The notes beneath the pieces are model-generated. The model ran no database searches. It was not told the DNA's origin and worked only from the letters and a program-made list of their open reading frames with translations. The position numbers and the translations under genes were made by a program. DNA of 64,000 bases, from NCBI GenBank assembly GCA_937124965.1, contig CAKZLB010000013.1:487154-551153 (forward strand), read 5' to 3'. Each line of letters starts with the position of its first letter. Positions within the stretch are counted from its first letter, which is position 1. Shown here piece after piece: positions 43,994-51,895 of this stretch. Origin of the DNA: an uncultured Bacteroidota bacterium (GTDB lineage: Bacteria; Bacteroidota; Bacteroidia; NS11-12g; UBA9320).

Positions 43994-45373
43994 TTGACAC
44001 TTCGTTTTTTAGCATTCTTACTTTCTATTCTCATCGGCGAAAGTGTATTAAATGCTCAAAATACGACCACTATTCTTCCAGTTACATCAATCCAAATCGA
44101 AGGTAACTCCAAGACAAAAGAGTCTATCATTCTTCGTGAACTTAGTTTTAAAGTAGGTCAACAATTAACCGAAGCTGAGCTTAAAGACGATTATCTTCCA
44201 AGGTCCATTGCCATGCTTAAAAATCTTAATTTGTTTAATGATATTGATATTGTTTACAAAACAACACCGGAAGGCTTTTTAACAACTATAAGAGTTGTAG
44301 AAAAATGGTACTGGTGGCCAATTCCTTTTGTTGAATTTGCTGATCGAAATTTTAATCAATGGTACACATTTGATTTTGACCCGTACAGAACGAATATTGG
44401 CTTCTACCTTTTTAAATACAACCTATTTGGCTTGAACCATACGGCAAAACTTACGCTTGGCAAAGGGTATACAAATACTATTGGTTTTGAGTATATCGCT
44501 CCTTACGTTGACAACAGAAAACGGTTTGGTTTTGAAATTGACATCCGAAATAAAATCAACCAAGAAATTCAATATGGTTTGCTGAATAATGAACCACAGT
44601 TTTTTAGAACCGATAAACAAAAAATTATTGAACAATTTCAATCTAGAGTAAAACTCATCTATCGTCCTCAGCTATTTCTAACCCACGGATTAAATCTTGA
44701 GATATCAAATACTTCTGTTAGTGACACAGTTCTTTCAGAGGGAATCAATGAAAATTATTTGTACAAATCTCTTCCCAATCAAAATGAAACCATTTTAGGA
44801 TATGAGGTTGCCTTTGACAAACGAAACAATAGATTACTTCCAATAAAAGGGACATTTATAAATGGGTCGATTAACTATCACAGCCTGAACAAGTCTGATT
44901 TAAAGTATGTATCTGTTGGACTTGAAGCAGCACGGTATATTAGTTTTGACAGTACAAAATTCTCTATTGCTTTAGCGGGGCGTGTTAAGTCCGCTACAGA
45001 ACGCGGATTACCTTTTCATTTAAACAAGATATTAGGCTTCGATGATTATATCCGAGGATATGAGAACAACGTATTTTTAGGGCAATCAATGGCTCTAGCA
45101 AAAATCGAAATTCGATATCACATAATTAAAGAACGAAAAATTAAGTGGCAGTACATGCCTCTCAGGTCTTACAAACAAATGCCTATCGAATCCTACTTAA
45201 GTGCTTTCACCGACATCGGCTCGGCGTTAAATGGTGATACACGTCAGGAGCTTTTTGGATATGGATTCGGTGTCAATGCACTCTTTTATTTCGACAAAGT
45301 GGTTAGATTTGAATATTCTTGGAACCATTGGAATCAAGGCGGAATAAAAATACACTTTAAAAAAGCATTTTAA
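43994..45373 (+). CDS. Small Omp85-superfamily outer-membrane protein (BamA/TamA-like)
   Basis: 459 residues, TTG start. Signal peptide (FLAFLLSILIGESVLNAQ). One POTRA-like region is visible (VTSIQIEGNSKTKESIILRE ... VVEKWYWWPIPFVEF), then a beta-barrel with alternating aromatic strands ending in the FxFxWxxWxxGG-type tail and a final Phe (KIHFKKAF), as needed for outer-membrane insertion. It is much shorter than the 839-residue BamA 4 kb downstream, so it is a separate paralogue. It overlaps nadK by one base. Role in barrel or lipid-protein assembly is inferred. Confidence 0.88.
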   Translation: MTLRFLAFLLSILIGESVLNAQNTTTILPVTSIQIEGNSKTKESIILRELSFKVGQQLTEAELKDDYLPRSIAMLKNLNLFNDIDIVYKTTPEGFLTTIRVVEKWYWWPIPFVEFADRNFNQWYTFDFDPYRTNIGFYLFKYNLFGLNHTAKLTLGKGYTNTIGFEYIAPYVDNRKRFGFEIDIRNKINQEIQYGLLNNEPQFFRTDKQKIIEQFQSRVKLIYRPQLFLTHGLNLEISNTSVSDTVLSEGINENYLYKSLPNQNETILGYEVAFDKRNNRLLPIKGTFINGSINYHSLNKSDLKYVSVGLEAARYISFDSTKFSIALAGRVKSATERGLPFHLNKILGFDDYIRGYENNVFLGQSMALAKIEIRYHIIKERKIKWQYMPLRSYKQMPIESYLSAFTDIGSALNGDTRQELFGYGFGVNALFYFDKVVRFEYSWNHWNQGGIKIHFKKAF

Positions 45374-46748: not shown

Positions 46749-47672
46749 ATGAATAAGCAACATAAAAAAAGTGGGTTATTTGTGATGTTGACTATGGCAT
46801 TTGTCGTGGTTTCGTCATTTGCAAATGCACAACAATGGTCTCGTAAGAGCTCTCTAGAATTCGGTTTCATGGCGGGAGGTAGTAATTATGCTGGCGACCT
46901 CACGGACAAATATTTCGAAACAGAAGGAATCAATCCGAACGCAGGAATTCTTGTACGCTACAATCCCGTTCAACGTTTTTCTTTTCACGTTGGAGTAAAC
47001 TATGGCAAGCTTACAGGCTATGACTCATGGTACGCAACAGATGAATTACGAACAAATAGAAACTTAAGTTTTGAAACGGATTTTTGGGATTTTCATGCGG
47101 CGTTTGATCTGAATTTAAACACGTTCGACTTCAAACAAAAGCGTGGAGCAGTTCCTTACCTTATGGGTGGTATTGCTGTATTTAAATATAACCCCAAAGC
47201 TCAATTCTTTTATCAACCAAACTCATGGCAAAATCTTGCCAACGATAACAGTTATGAAACCTTAGAATCGCGAGATGGCGATTGGGTTGAACTTCAGCCG
47301 TTAGGCACCGAAGGTCAAGAAACAACAGAATACAACGATATAAGAAGATATTCATTAACACAACTAGCTATCCCTGTGGGAATTGGTGTTAAGTTCAAAT
47401 TAAACCAAAACTGGACCTTTGGAATTGAATATTCAACACGATTCACATTCACAGATTACATTGATGACGTAAGTGGAGAGTACGCAGAATCAATTTTCTT
47501 AGAAGCACAATATGGCCCAATGAGTAAAGCAATGGCCGATAGAAGTCCAACTCAAAACTTAGCAACAACTGCTAGAGGAGATGAGTCTAAAACAGACCTT
47601 TACAATATATTCGGAATTACGTTAACGTATAAAATCATAAAGTCGGGTGAAGTTTGCCCTGCATTTCGCTAA
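46749..47672 (+). CDS. DUF6089 outer-membrane protein, PorG-like (copy 1)
   Basis: 307 residues. Signal peptide (VVVSSFANA|QQ). Barrel-like pattern with SNYAGDLTDKYFETEG, VGVNYGKLTGYDSW, YLMGGIAVFKYNPKAQF, and FGIEYSTRFTFTDYIDDVSG. These are features of DUF6089 proteins, whose Porphyromonas member PorG is a T9SS outer-membrane component encoded, as here, directly before uppS and an Omp85 gene. No other T9SS core gene is in the window. A second copy follows 104 bases downstream. Confidence 0.88.
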   Translation: MNKQHKKSGLFVMLTMAFVVVSSFANAQQWSRKSSLEFGFMAGGSNYAGDLTDKYFETEGINPNAGILVRYNPVQRFSFHVGVNYGKLTGYDSWYATDELRTNRNLSFETDFWDFHAAFDLNLNTFDFKQKRGAVPYLMGGIAVFKYNPKAQFFYQPNSWQNLANDNSYETLESRDGDWVELQPLGTEGQETTEYNDIRRYSLTQLAIPVGIGVKFKLNQNWTFGIEYSTRFTFTDYIDDVSGEYAESIFLEAQYGPMSKAMADRSPTQNLATTARGDESKTDLYNIFGITLTYKIIKSGEVCPAFR

Positions 47673-47678
47673 AATCAA

Positions 47679-47710
47679 CACTAAGTCATATTGCTAGTTA
47701 TGACGTAGTG
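47679..47710 (+). other. Inverted repeat between the two DUF6089 genes
   Basis: CACTAAGTCATA (47679-47690) pairs with TATGACGTAGTG (47699-47710), eleven of twelve positions matching, around an 8-base loop. It starts 7 bases after the first gene's stop. It is followed by A8, not T8, so it is not a plus-strand terminator; an mRNA processing or stabilising hairpin is possible. Confidence 0.55.
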
Positions 47711-47776
47711 AAAAAAAATTCAATGAATAATTTCGCGTTTTGTAACAAAACCTAGAACAACACGTTTAACAGCTAA

Positions 47777-48619
47777 ATGAGCAAATTGGTAAAACATTTT
47801 TTCTTCTTGTTATTTGCACTTATGCAGGTTAGCCTTGCGAGTGCTCAAAACTGGGAATATGGTGTTTCAATAGGCGCAAGTAATTACCATGGCGACCTAG
47901 CATATAACATTGTTCCCAAAGAATCGCACTTAGCTGCTGGAATCCACATGCGATACAATATGACTCCATATTGGTCTTACAAACCGTCTATTATGCGTGC
48001 AAAAATCAGCGGTAGTGATCAAAACTTTGATGAATACAAATTTCGCAATCTCCACTTTGAATCAGATATTTGGGAATTCAACAACGTATTAGAATTCAAT
48101 TTCTTACCATTTGGTTCAAGAATTTTGAGTAAAGACTTCTCGTCATATGCAACTCTCGGAATTACTTTATTTCGTCATAACCCGAAAGCAGAGTTTAATG
48201 ACGAAATGTATAGCCTCCGTAATTTGAGAACTGAAGGTCAAAATGGTAAAAACCAATATGGTCTTTTACAACTCGCAATTCCCTTCGGTGGAGGCGTAAA
48301 ATACAATATCAACAAGAATTTAGTAATAGGTTTGGAAGTCGCATGGCGCAAAACGTTTACTGACTATCTAGATGATGTGAGTACCGTTTATCCCGACCTA
48401 GATGAGCAACGTCAGCGTAATGGCAATCTAAGTGCCGACATGTCGGATAGAAGTTGGGAAGTTGAGGGAGGAACTGGGCAACCATTGTCTGTTGCAGGTG
48501 ACGAACGAGGCGATTCTGCTATAAAAGACTTTTATTTCATTACGGCTTTCTCTTTTACATATCGTTTGACGCCTATCGCTTGCTGGCCTAAATATAAACG
48601 AGAATTTTTGTTTAAATAA
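47777..48619 (+). CDS. DUF6089 outer-membrane protein, PorG-like (copy 2)
   Basis: 280 residues. Signal peptide (LMQVSLASA|Q). It shares with copy 1 the order SNYHGDLAYN, GIHMRYNMTPYWSYKPS, ESDIWEFNNVLEFNFLPF, ATLGITLFRHNPKAEF, LVIGLEVAWRKTFTDYLDDV and DERGDSAIKDFYFITAF, but is clearly diverged. Being 2 bases from uppS, this copy has the position of PorG in Porphyromonas (porG-uppS-Omp85). Either one copy keeps the T9SS role or the two work together. Confidence 0.88.
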   Translation: MSKLVKHFFFLLFALMQVSLASAQNWEYGVSIGASNYHGDLAYNIVPKESHLAAGIHMRYNMTPYWSYKPSIMRAKISGSDQNFDEYKFRNLHFESDIWEFNNVLEFNFLPFGSRILSKDFSSYATLGITLFRHNPKAEFNDEMYSLRNLRTEGQNGKNQYGLLQLAIPFGGGVKYNINKNLVIGLEVAWRKTFTDYLDDVSTVYPDLDEQRQRNGNLSADMSDRSWEVEGGTGQPLSVAGDERGDSAIKDFYFITAFSFTYRLTPIACWPKYKREFLFK

Positions 48620-48621
48620 CT

Positions 48622-49374
48622 ATGTCAATCGAGCACAATCTTGATCCGAATCGGATTCCTAAACACATTGCTGTTATAATGGATGGCAATGGCCGATGGG
48701 CAAAAAAGCAAGGAAAATTTCGCGTATTTGGGCATCAACATGGAGTTAAAGCTGTTAATGAAATCACTGAAGGTGCTGCAGAACTTGGTGTAGAATACTT
48801 AACGTTATACGCTTTTTCTACTGAGAATTGGAATCGTCCTAAAATTGAAATCAACGCATTAATGTCTCTTTTGGTTAAAACAATCAAAAAAGAAACTCCA
48901 ACGTTGATGAAAAATCAAATAAAACTAACTACTATTGGTCAAATTGATAGTCTTCCAGGAGAATGCAAAGCTGAGCTGCAACAAGCAATTGATGCAACCA
49001 AAGACAATACACGTATGACACTTATTCTCGCGCTAAGCTACAGTGCAAAATGGGATATTGTTAACTCCGTGAAAAAGATTGCTGTTCAATATAAAAATGG
49101 GGAAATAGACCTAAGTGACATAAATGAGAATTTGATCAGTGGTTCACTTTCTACAAATAGAATTCCAGACCCTGACCTAATGATTCGAACAAGTGGCGAG
49201 CACCGAATAAGCAACTACTTGTTATGGGAAATGGCATATAGTGAGTTTTATTTTACGGATGTACTTTGGCCAGACTTCCGAAAGGAACATTTACATGAAG
49301 CCATTTCCAACTACCAGAATCGAGAACGACGGTTTGGTAAAACTGGAGAACAAATAGCAGAAAAAAAGAATTAG
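48622..49374 (+). CDS. uppS: Isoprenyl transferase (undecaprenyl diphosphate synthase)
   Basis: 250 residues, usual length. Makes the C55 lipid carrier for cell-wall and surface glycan synthesis from farnesyl-PP and isopentenyl-PP. Signatures: AVIMDGNGRWAKKQG, YLTLYAFSTENWNRP, PDLMIRTSGEHRISNYLLWE and SEFYFTDVLWPDF. It is 2 bases after the second DUF6089 gene and 1 base before bamA. Confidence 0.97.
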   Translation: MSIEHNLDPNRIPKHIAVIMDGNGRWAKKQGKFRVFGHQHGVKAVNEITEGAAELGVEYLTLYAFSTENWNRPKIEINALMSLLVKTIKKETPTLMKNQIKLTTIGQIDSLPGECKAELQQAIDATKDNTRMTLILALSYSAKWDIVNSVKKIAVQYKNGEIDLSDINENLISGSLSTNRIPDPDLMIRTSGEHRISNYLLWEMAYSEFYFTDVLWPDFRKEHLHEAISNYQNRERRFGKTGEQIAEKKN

Positions 49375-49375
49375 A

Positions 49376-51895
49376 ATGAAGCAGATGATTTTACGTGGGT
49401 TGATACTAGCTGTTGGGTTAATGTCATTTGGTCTTGCATCCGCTCAAGACGAAGAATTAATTGAATTAGATTACGCCAAACCAAAGGAATATGTCATTGG
49501 AGGTATTATGGTGCGGGGTGCTGTTTCGTTAGATGGAAACATTGTAGCACACATCTCGGGGCTTTCTCGAGACATGAAGGTAAAAATCCCAGGAGATAAA
49601 ATCAGCAAGGCAATAGAAACCCTTTGGAACCAACAAATTTACTCGAATGTCGAATTACTGGTTAATGGTTTAAAAGGAAAAGACACGGTATTTTTGTTAA
49701 TTCGTGTCACCGAGCGAGCAAAATTATCGAAATACTCAATCCGTGGTTTGAATAAAACAGAAACGAAAAACATTCGGGAAGAAATAAGCCTTAAGCGTGG
49801 TCAAATCATTACTGAAAATCTCATCGACGTGACTCGCAAAGAGATTGAAGACTACTACTTTGAAAAAGGATTCTATAATGCAAACGTATTAATAAATGCG
49901 GAAGAAGATACGAGTATTTACAATAGTAAAATGCTTCGAATTCATGTAAAAAAAGGAAGAAGAGTTAAAGTCGAAAACATATTCATCCAAGGCAACGACA
50001 GCCTTAAAGCGAAGAAGATAAAGCAGGTGATTAAACCAAAACAGAAAAAAGGTAAAATAAACCCTTTCGCATCTTCCAAACTTGTTAAGAGTGAATACGA
50101 CATTGAAAAAAAGAAAATAGTTGATGTATATCAATCCTTAGGATATCGCGATGCAGAGTTGCTTGGAGACAGTATTGTAAGAATTAGTTCGAACCGCGTG
50201 AACCTCTACATTAACGTTAAAGAAGGCCGTAAATATTACTTCCGTGATATAAAATGGACTGGAAATACAAAACATAGTTCAGGGCGATTAGACACGATTT
50301 TAAACATTAAAAAAGGGGATGTTTTTAATCAAGCCAAACTTGATACAAGGCTGTTTATGAACCCATCTGGATTGGATATCTCGAGTATATATATGGATGA
50401 CGGTTATTTGTTTTTTAATATTAGCCCTGTAGAAACGAATGTAGAAAACGACAGTATCGATTTAGAAATTCGTATTTATGAAGGAAAGCAAGCGACAATT
50501 AATAAAGTCACGGTAACAGGAAATGATAAGACAAGTGATTTTGTGATACTTCGCGCAATTCGAACCAAACCTGGTCAAAAGTTTAGTAGAACAGACATAC
50601 AACGATCTTTGCGAGAATTATCGACGTTGGGATATTTTGACCCAGAACAACTAGATGTAAACCCAATACCTAACCCTGCTAGTGGGACGGTAGATATTGA
50701 ATACAAAGTTGTAGAGAAACCATCTGATCAAATTGAAGCTAGTGGTGGCTTTGGTGGCGGTTTTGGTTTCGTAGGTACCGTTGGTTTAAGCTTGAATAAC
50801 TTTTCAACTCGAAAGATGTTAAAAGGTCAATGGGATCCAATACCTACTGGTGATGGTCAACGTTTAACTGTAAGAGCTCAGTCAAATGGTTTGCCGTTCC
50901 AATCATATAATTTCTCATTTACAGAGCCATGGTTTGGTGGCAAAAAACCTAATTCTTTAACGGCAAGTGTTTTTTATTCGCGCCAAACTTCTCAAAACTT
51001 TACAATTAAGGATGATCCAAATCGTCAGAGACTGCATACAACTGGAGCTTCATTGGTTTATGGCAAGTTGTTAAAATGGCCTGATGATTTCTTTACATGG
51101 AGTCATAGCTTAAATTATCAACAATACAAACTTGAAAATTGGAGGGCTTTTGGTTCTGCGGAAATAGGTTATACTGACGGTATTTCAAATAGTTTTTCAT
51201 ACAATACTATTTTATCTAGAAACTCTACTTCTGCTCCGATATATCCTCAAAATGGATCTCAATTTTCACTTTCAATTCAAGCGACTTTACCCCATTCTTT
51301 GCTAAGTGGAAAAGACAATATTTCAGAACTTACGTCTCAAGAAAAATACAAATGGGTTGAATATCACAAGTGGAAATTCAATGCAAGCTGGTTTATGCAA
51401 GCGGTTGATAAACTCATTTTTGTTCCTCATTTTGAAACTGGAATTATTGGTCTTTACAACAAGGATATAGGTTACTCTCCATTCGAACAGTTTCGTGTGG
51501 GTGGGTCAGGTTTTGGGTCATGGGCAGTTTATGGAACTGAAATTATTCCTCAAAAAGGGTATGATGAAGGCAGAATTTCTGAGGATGCTCCTGGAGATCA
51601 AGATGCTGATCCATTGTATGCAAAGTATTCTATTGAAATGAGATATCCATTATCCTTAAACCCATCAGCTACCGTTTATGGATACACATACTTTGAGGCG
51701 GGAAATACATGGAACAGTGTTCGTGAATACGACCCATTTGATTTACGAAGAGCAGTAGGCGTTGGTGTTAGAATGTACCTTCCAATGTTTGGATTACTTG
51801 GTTTTGACTATGGATGGGGATTGGACAAAGCAACGCTCAATAACAAGTTTGGAGAGAAGGGACAATTTCTTTTCTCAATTGGACAATCGTTTTAG
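49376..51895 (+). CDS. bamA: Outer-membrane protein assembly factor BamA
   Basis: 839 residues. Signal peptide (VGLMSFGLASA|Q), then a POTRA array (about 35-460; junction motifs such as YSIRGLNKTETKNIREEISL, VENIFIQGNDSLKAKKIKQV, FRDIKWTGNTKHSSGRLDTI, INKVTVTGNDKTSDFVILRA) and a C-terminal 16-strand Omp85 barrel with the GGSGFGSW lid-loop segment and the terminal Phe (LFSIGQSF). It inserts beta-barrels into the outer membrane. The skp/ompH genes often found after bamA in this phylum are absent; instead the convergent M16 gene overlaps its stop by 4 bases. Confidence 0.96.
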   Translation: MKQMILRGLILAVGLMSFGLASAQDEELIELDYAKPKEYVIGGIMVRGAVSLDGNIVAHISGLSRDMKVKIPGDKISKAIETLWNQQIYSNVELLVNGLKGKDTVFLLIRVTERAKLSKYSIRGLNKTETKNIREEISLKRGQIITENLIDVTRKEIEDYYFEKGFYNANVLINAEEDTSIYNSKMLRIHVKKGRRVKVENIFIQGNDSLKAKKIKQVIKPKQKKGKINPFASSKLVKSEYDIEKKKIVDVYQSLGYRDAELLGDSIVRISSNRVNLYINVKEGRKYYFRDIKWTGNTKHSSGRLDTILNIKKGDVFNQAKLDTRLFMNPSGLDISSIYMDDGYLFFNISPVETNVENDSIDLEIRIYEGKQATINKVTVTGNDKTSDFVILRAIRTKPGQKFSRTDIQRSLRELSTLGYFDPEQLDVNPIPNPASGTVDIEYKVVEKPSDQIEASGGFGGGFGFVGTVGLSLNNFSTRKMLKGQWDPIPTGDGQRLTVRAQSNGLPFQSYNFSFTEPWFGGKKPNSLTASVFYSRQTSQNFTIKDDPNRQRLHTTGASLVYGKLLKWPDDFFTWSHSLNYQQYKLENWRAFGSAEIGYTDGISNSFSYNTILSRNSTSAPIYPQNGSQFSLSIQATLPHSLLSGKDNISELTSQEKYKWVEYHKWKFNASWFMQAVDKLIFVPHFETGIIGLYNKDIGYSPFEQFRVGGSGFGSWAVYGTEIIPQKGYDEGRISEDAPGDQDADPLYAKYSIEMRYPLSLNPSATVYGYTYFEAGNTWNSVREYDPFDLRRAVGVGVRMYLPMFGLLGFDYGWGLDKATLNNKFGEKGQFLFSIGQSF

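Follow-up and report, generated by a model that had tools for sequence, protein, structure and literature searches.

Two genes of the DUF6089 family lie in a row directly 5' of uppS and bamA in an uncultured Bacteroidota bacterium, whose family is represented chiefly by uncultured marine genomes. Their presence raises the question whether the pair serves two T9SS assemblies, forms a heteromer, or supplies two different PorG barrels to a single apparatus. The window analyzed here is the whole stretch of 64,000 nucleotides on which the genes are found; the upstream gene is called A and the downstream gene B. Positions within the window are as follows.

46749-47672, + strand: gene A, intact open reading frame of 307 aa, divergent Cys-bearing PorG paralog
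47655-47657, + strand: codon for C303, the tail cysteine of A in the motif C-x-x-F, conserved in all 21 of 21 aligned A proteins
47679-47690/47699-47710, no strand: inverted repeat in the gap between the genes, with 12-nt arms and an 8-nt loop
47777-48619, + strand: gene B, intact open reading frame of 280 aa, canonical PorG
48581-48583, + strand: codon for C269, the tail cysteine of B, conserved in all 21 of 21 aligned B proteins
48622-49374, + strand: uppS (isoprenyl transferase), from the Pfam Prenyltransf match (3e-86) and synteny
49376-51895, + strand: bamA (Omp85), from POTRA repeats (Pfam) and synteny

The tandem arrangement itself, as originally predicted, is borne out by the open reading frames and by the Pfam and NCBIfam matches. 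A gene at 43994-45373, upstream of both nadK and the PorG pair, encodes a small Omp85 protein in which POTRA is matched once; it stays beside nadK in several relatives.

Both proteins match Pfam DUF6089 (A, E=3.5e-22; B, E=2e-27) and share 34% identity over 295 columns (BLASTP E=6e-39). Against the T9SS_PorG equivalog model NF052316, which has a curated cut-off of 130 bits, B scores 155.3 bits and A 128.2 bits, 2 bits below the cut-off; relatives of A in other genomes exceed it, e.g., those in G004 (136.5 bits) and G019 (130.4 bits). Each protein has a hydrophobic N-terminus and an AlphaFold2 model with eight long strands (mean pLDDT of 87.2 for B and 80.2 for A), the best Foldseek matches of which are OmpA, OmpX/Ail, and OmpW. 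Likeness to the same folds was reported for P. gingivalis PorG (PMC4980022). On the strength of these models, A and B are both predicted to be eight-stranded outer-membrane barrels with a signal peptide. That both genes are PorG-family members at the PorG locus, as had been proposed, agrees with the search of the remaining genome: the next-best paralog elsewhere reaches 104 bits against the PorG model, below A and B, and a third, truer PorG was thus not found. Three further DUF6089-like genes occur outside T9SS loci in the same genome (C67:74723, C42:6835, and C55:54416); they cluster in the tree (94), and one of them has a pyruvate-dehydrogenase-like gene on one side and ribosomal protein genes on the other.

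In both models a single cysteine lies just past the last strand, in a floppy tail (pLDDT <50 for residues 270-280 in B and 302-307 in A). This tail cysteine is present in 37/37 complete A proteins and 40/40 B proteins, and in all other columns of both alignments Cys occurs in at most four of the 21 sequences. In F. johnsoniae and P. gingivalis, the PorG tail cysteines are needed for T9SS export; in the former they make a disulfide with GldK Cys343, and the CXC of the tail acts as a donor disulfide, while P. gingivalis PorG works with one tail cysteine (PMC12635249). The GldK of the present genome carries C304, which aligns with C356 of P. gingivalis PorK, the PorG-reactive cysteine, and an equivalent cysteine is present in 51/51 GldK homologues. 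Given invariant tail cysteines in A and B and this partner cysteine in GldK, both barrels carry the features required for attachment to one and the same hub or track. Other GldK cysteines were considered as a second docking site and rejected; besides C304 and the lipid cysteine, they vary and do not track PorG number.

The two barrels differ in a periplasmic turn, for which a peptide of P. gingivalis PG0189 (SEFNFLPYSDGYKYLGTAR) was reported to cross-link to PorK and PorN (PMC4980022). An EFNF motif in this PorK-contacting turn is found in 17/19 B proteins vs. 2/19 A proteins. Elsewhere it occurs in 5/6 PorGs of family f53 and, where a Cys-less upstream copy is paired with a Cys-tailed one, in 18/24 downstream and 0/24 upstream copies; it is present in B and absent from A, but variable among single-copy PorGs themselves (22/44). 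In A, a long stretch near residues 153-200 is inserted in addition, and the third extracellular loop is longer. Judged from these sequence features, B is best read as the canonical, orthologue-like PorG and A as an ancient paralog that has lost EFNF, keeping the tether and not the EFNF contact with PorK. Without the EFNF turn, the contact of A with GldK may differ.

That the tandem is peculiar to this organism is not supported. The order A-B-uppS is kept in 39/40 loci of relatives from two families of the same order, and uppS adjoins B in all 40. The exception, G007 (78% complete), has B without A at the locus and men genes 5' of B, a real rearrangement. G005 and G036 gave no strong PorG match; since both assemblies also lack uppS, the missing pair is probably an assembly gap, and loss of the pair in these two genomes was rejected as a reading. 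Across the class, among 56 genomes with uppS inside the fetched stretch, 25 carry a single PorG gene and the other 31 carry two to four PorG-type genes at the uppS locus; of these 31, 23 combine a Cys-less upstream copy with a Cys-tailed one beside uppS, and 8 hold two to four copies with a tail cysteine. The uppS-adjacent copy has the tail cysteine in 56/56 genomes. In the literature searched, which includes the main papers in part, we found no mention of DUF6089 and no description of tandem PorGs.

In the other type of pair (e.g., L243 Pontibacter oryzae, L255 Hymenobacter gummosus, L105, and L121), the upstream copy always lacks the tail cysteine; these Cys-less copies often end in ...LPKF and mostly form one clade of their own. 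One pond MAG (L217:344-2077) has two tandem barrels as a single 577-aa frame in which the intervening stop is missing and the inner signal peptide is kept; this double-barrel frame may be a sequencing error.

The division between A and B is old. Trees of 174 proteins and, more carefully, of 60 proteins both separate an A clade from a B clade. The B clade also takes in the third gene of the three-gene arrays of family f38 (95/96), and the A clade includes the second genes of f38 and f55, although support there is not strong (80/83); the Cys-less upstream copies of other families form a separate clade (100/100 in the 60-protein tree). Forcing A and B of the host order together was rejected by the AU test (p about 5.5e-5), which dismisses a recent duplication within the order and indicates that the A/B duplication predates the order. 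The phylogeny does not decide whether A or B is closer to the single PorG of the F. johnsoniae/Flavobacteriaceae type (AU values of 0.118 and 0.29). Within the genus, synonymous divergence is saturated in A as well as in B while non-synonymous divergence is low, a mark of purifying selection.

Expression of the pair had been linked to the inverted repeat between the genes. The repeat exists, its arms are 92% complementary, and only 2/300 base shuffles of the intergenic stretch do better; it is followed 3' by an A-run, not a T-run. It was not present in four same-genus relatives and is therefore probably incidental, and we discarded it as a regulator. In the host genus, the gap between A and B measures 104-108 nt, a TAnnTTTG (-7-like) element lies in it upstream of B in the four same-genus relatives, and B is within a few bases of uppS; in G007, B stands downstream of the same element without A. 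In family f2, A and B overlap or nearly touch. For the host genus, a promoter of its own for B is plausible from these motifs.

How many machines the two barrels could serve depends on the remaining components. The original prediction allowed for two T9SS assemblies, a reading that the gene counts have largely refuted: SprA and GldK each occur once in the genome, and one GldK is found in 65/66 genomes examined. The sole second GldK-like gene among the 66 (G127:C26:99381-100508; 287.7 bits, below cut-off) belongs to a genome that also carries three Cys-tailed PorG genes. What speaks for two assemblies is a second, divergent GldL-GldM pair together with two GldN genes. The latter stand in tandem after gldKLM in the gldKLMN cluster (C36 of the host genome; L274:4690-6497), but most relatives have one GldN only, so the GldN and PorG duplications are unlinked and a matching of paired PorG to paired GldN was rejected. 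Three genes, among them those of the second motor, lie together at C36:167331-171735 (L088:1331-5735; also L332, L333, L334, and L335). One encodes a divergent GldL, which at 75 bits is above its cut-off, and another a likewise divergent GldM with the GldM_1st, 3rd, and 4th domains; the remaining product, of 734 aa, combines a signal peptide, a beta-helix-like region, and a PorG-like C-terminal barrel. The same three genes occur together in G006, G013, G028, and G130; the fusion proteins measure 724-747 aa, share DYLDDVS and TEGQ motifs, and have no cysteine past the last strand. This module might be a second motor, driven by protons and linked to the fused barrel itself without a GldK track; no description of such a GldL-GldM-beta-helix/barrel module was found in the literature searched. 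The second GldLM adjoins a third PorG-like barrel of its own, and the near-complete relatives G010, G016, and G018 (99% complete), with a single GldM each, still have both A and B, which shows that the pair does not belong to the second motor. A distribution of A and B over two separate T9SS/gliding assemblies is consequently very improbable, and a heteromer, or two differently specialized PorGs on one track, is favored over it.

Between these, we consider it probable that A and B are two anciently duplicated, specialized PorG barrels of one T9SS/gliding apparatus, acting on one track. An obligate heteromer, either an A-B disulfide or paired barrels, is unlikely, although A and B are adjacent in 39 of the 40 relatives and each copy has one tail cysteine, vs. 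CXC in the single-copy PorGs of the Flavobacteriaceae-like families f53 and f22. In a variant of this proposal, an A-S-S-B pair would be the donor disulfide attacked by GldK, replacing the twin-cysteine CXC that has this function in F. johnsoniae (PMC12635249). However, among the 25 single-copy genomes CXC is confined to f53 and f22 and many single-copy PorGs have one cysteine, P. gingivalis PorG functions with one (PMC12635249), and the upstream copy of many pairs elsewhere (23 genomes) has no cysteine at all. Slightly less likely still are redundant isoforms that do the same job under different conditions. The 104-108 nt gap with the TAnnTTTG element 5' of B in four same-genus relatives, and the position of B behind this element in G007, would suit such a switch, but the divergence is old and stable with gene-specific features (the EFNF turn in B, the CxxF end in A), and the overlapping or nearly touching genes of f2 point to co-expression.

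If A and B are indeed specialized barrels of one apparatus, each would extend a short periplasmic C-terminal tail with one invariant cysteine and, by analogy with F. johnsoniae and P. gingivalis, would be disulfide-linked to the single reactive cysteine of GldK, C304. Since the GldK/GldN track contains many copies of this cysteine, A and B need not compete; as the genome has a single track and both barrels keep the bolt cysteine, they most likely ride the same one. B would push carrier-substrate complexes out of the SprA translocon. A would be a second tethered barrel, with a different PorK-facing turn and a longer third extracellular loop, and most likely serves another client class or partner; it might handle further carriers of the PorP/SprF type, or sit at a second site along the track. 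Three SprF/PorP-type (TIGR03519) genes are found elsewhere in the genome. The disulfides, the force transmission, and the division of labor between A and B are inferred.

Work from 2025 showed that a disulfide fixes PorG to the moving track, and its proposed role is to push cargo carriers from the translocon. A wider and more tentative reading, which we regard as possible but doubtful, is that one track bears several kinds of covalently tethered, force-transmitting barrels, that PorG was ancestrally a multi-gene array (two to four Cys-tailed members in this part of the class) with each member for different carriers, and that the two model organisms, with one PorG each, represent a reduced state. 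Lineages with two to four Cys-tailed PorGs on one GldK, or with one Cys-tailed and one Cys-less copy, represent natural separation-of-function material; a comparison of these lineages can separate the parts of PorG used in tethering from those used in client contact. Conclusions drawn from two models with one copy each may also fail to apply to much of the class.

The closest known counterparts of A and B are PorG of F. johnsoniae (Fjoh_1692) and P. gingivalis (PG0189/PGN_0297), with which they share the family, the eight-stranded barrel, the periplasmic tail cysteine, the place before uppS-Omp85, and a GldK partner with the same reactive cysteine. In both model organisms PorG is one gene, whereas here there are two tandem genes and elsewhere up to four; the tail of F. 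johnsoniae PorG is CXC, whereas A and B have a single cysteine, as does P. gingivalis PorG. A further departs from known PorGs in its PorK-facing turn and in the long insertion near its middle. Duplication of a T9SS component for one apparatus has a parallel in GldN/GldO of F. johnsoniae, which serve a single machine; these are ring/track subunits and not barrels, and the GldN duplication in the present genome is lineage-specific. Carriers of the SprF/PorP family resemble A and B in that C-terminal tail cysteines tether them to the same GldK cysteine, as reported for SprF (PMC12635249), but they belong to another protein family (TIGR03519).
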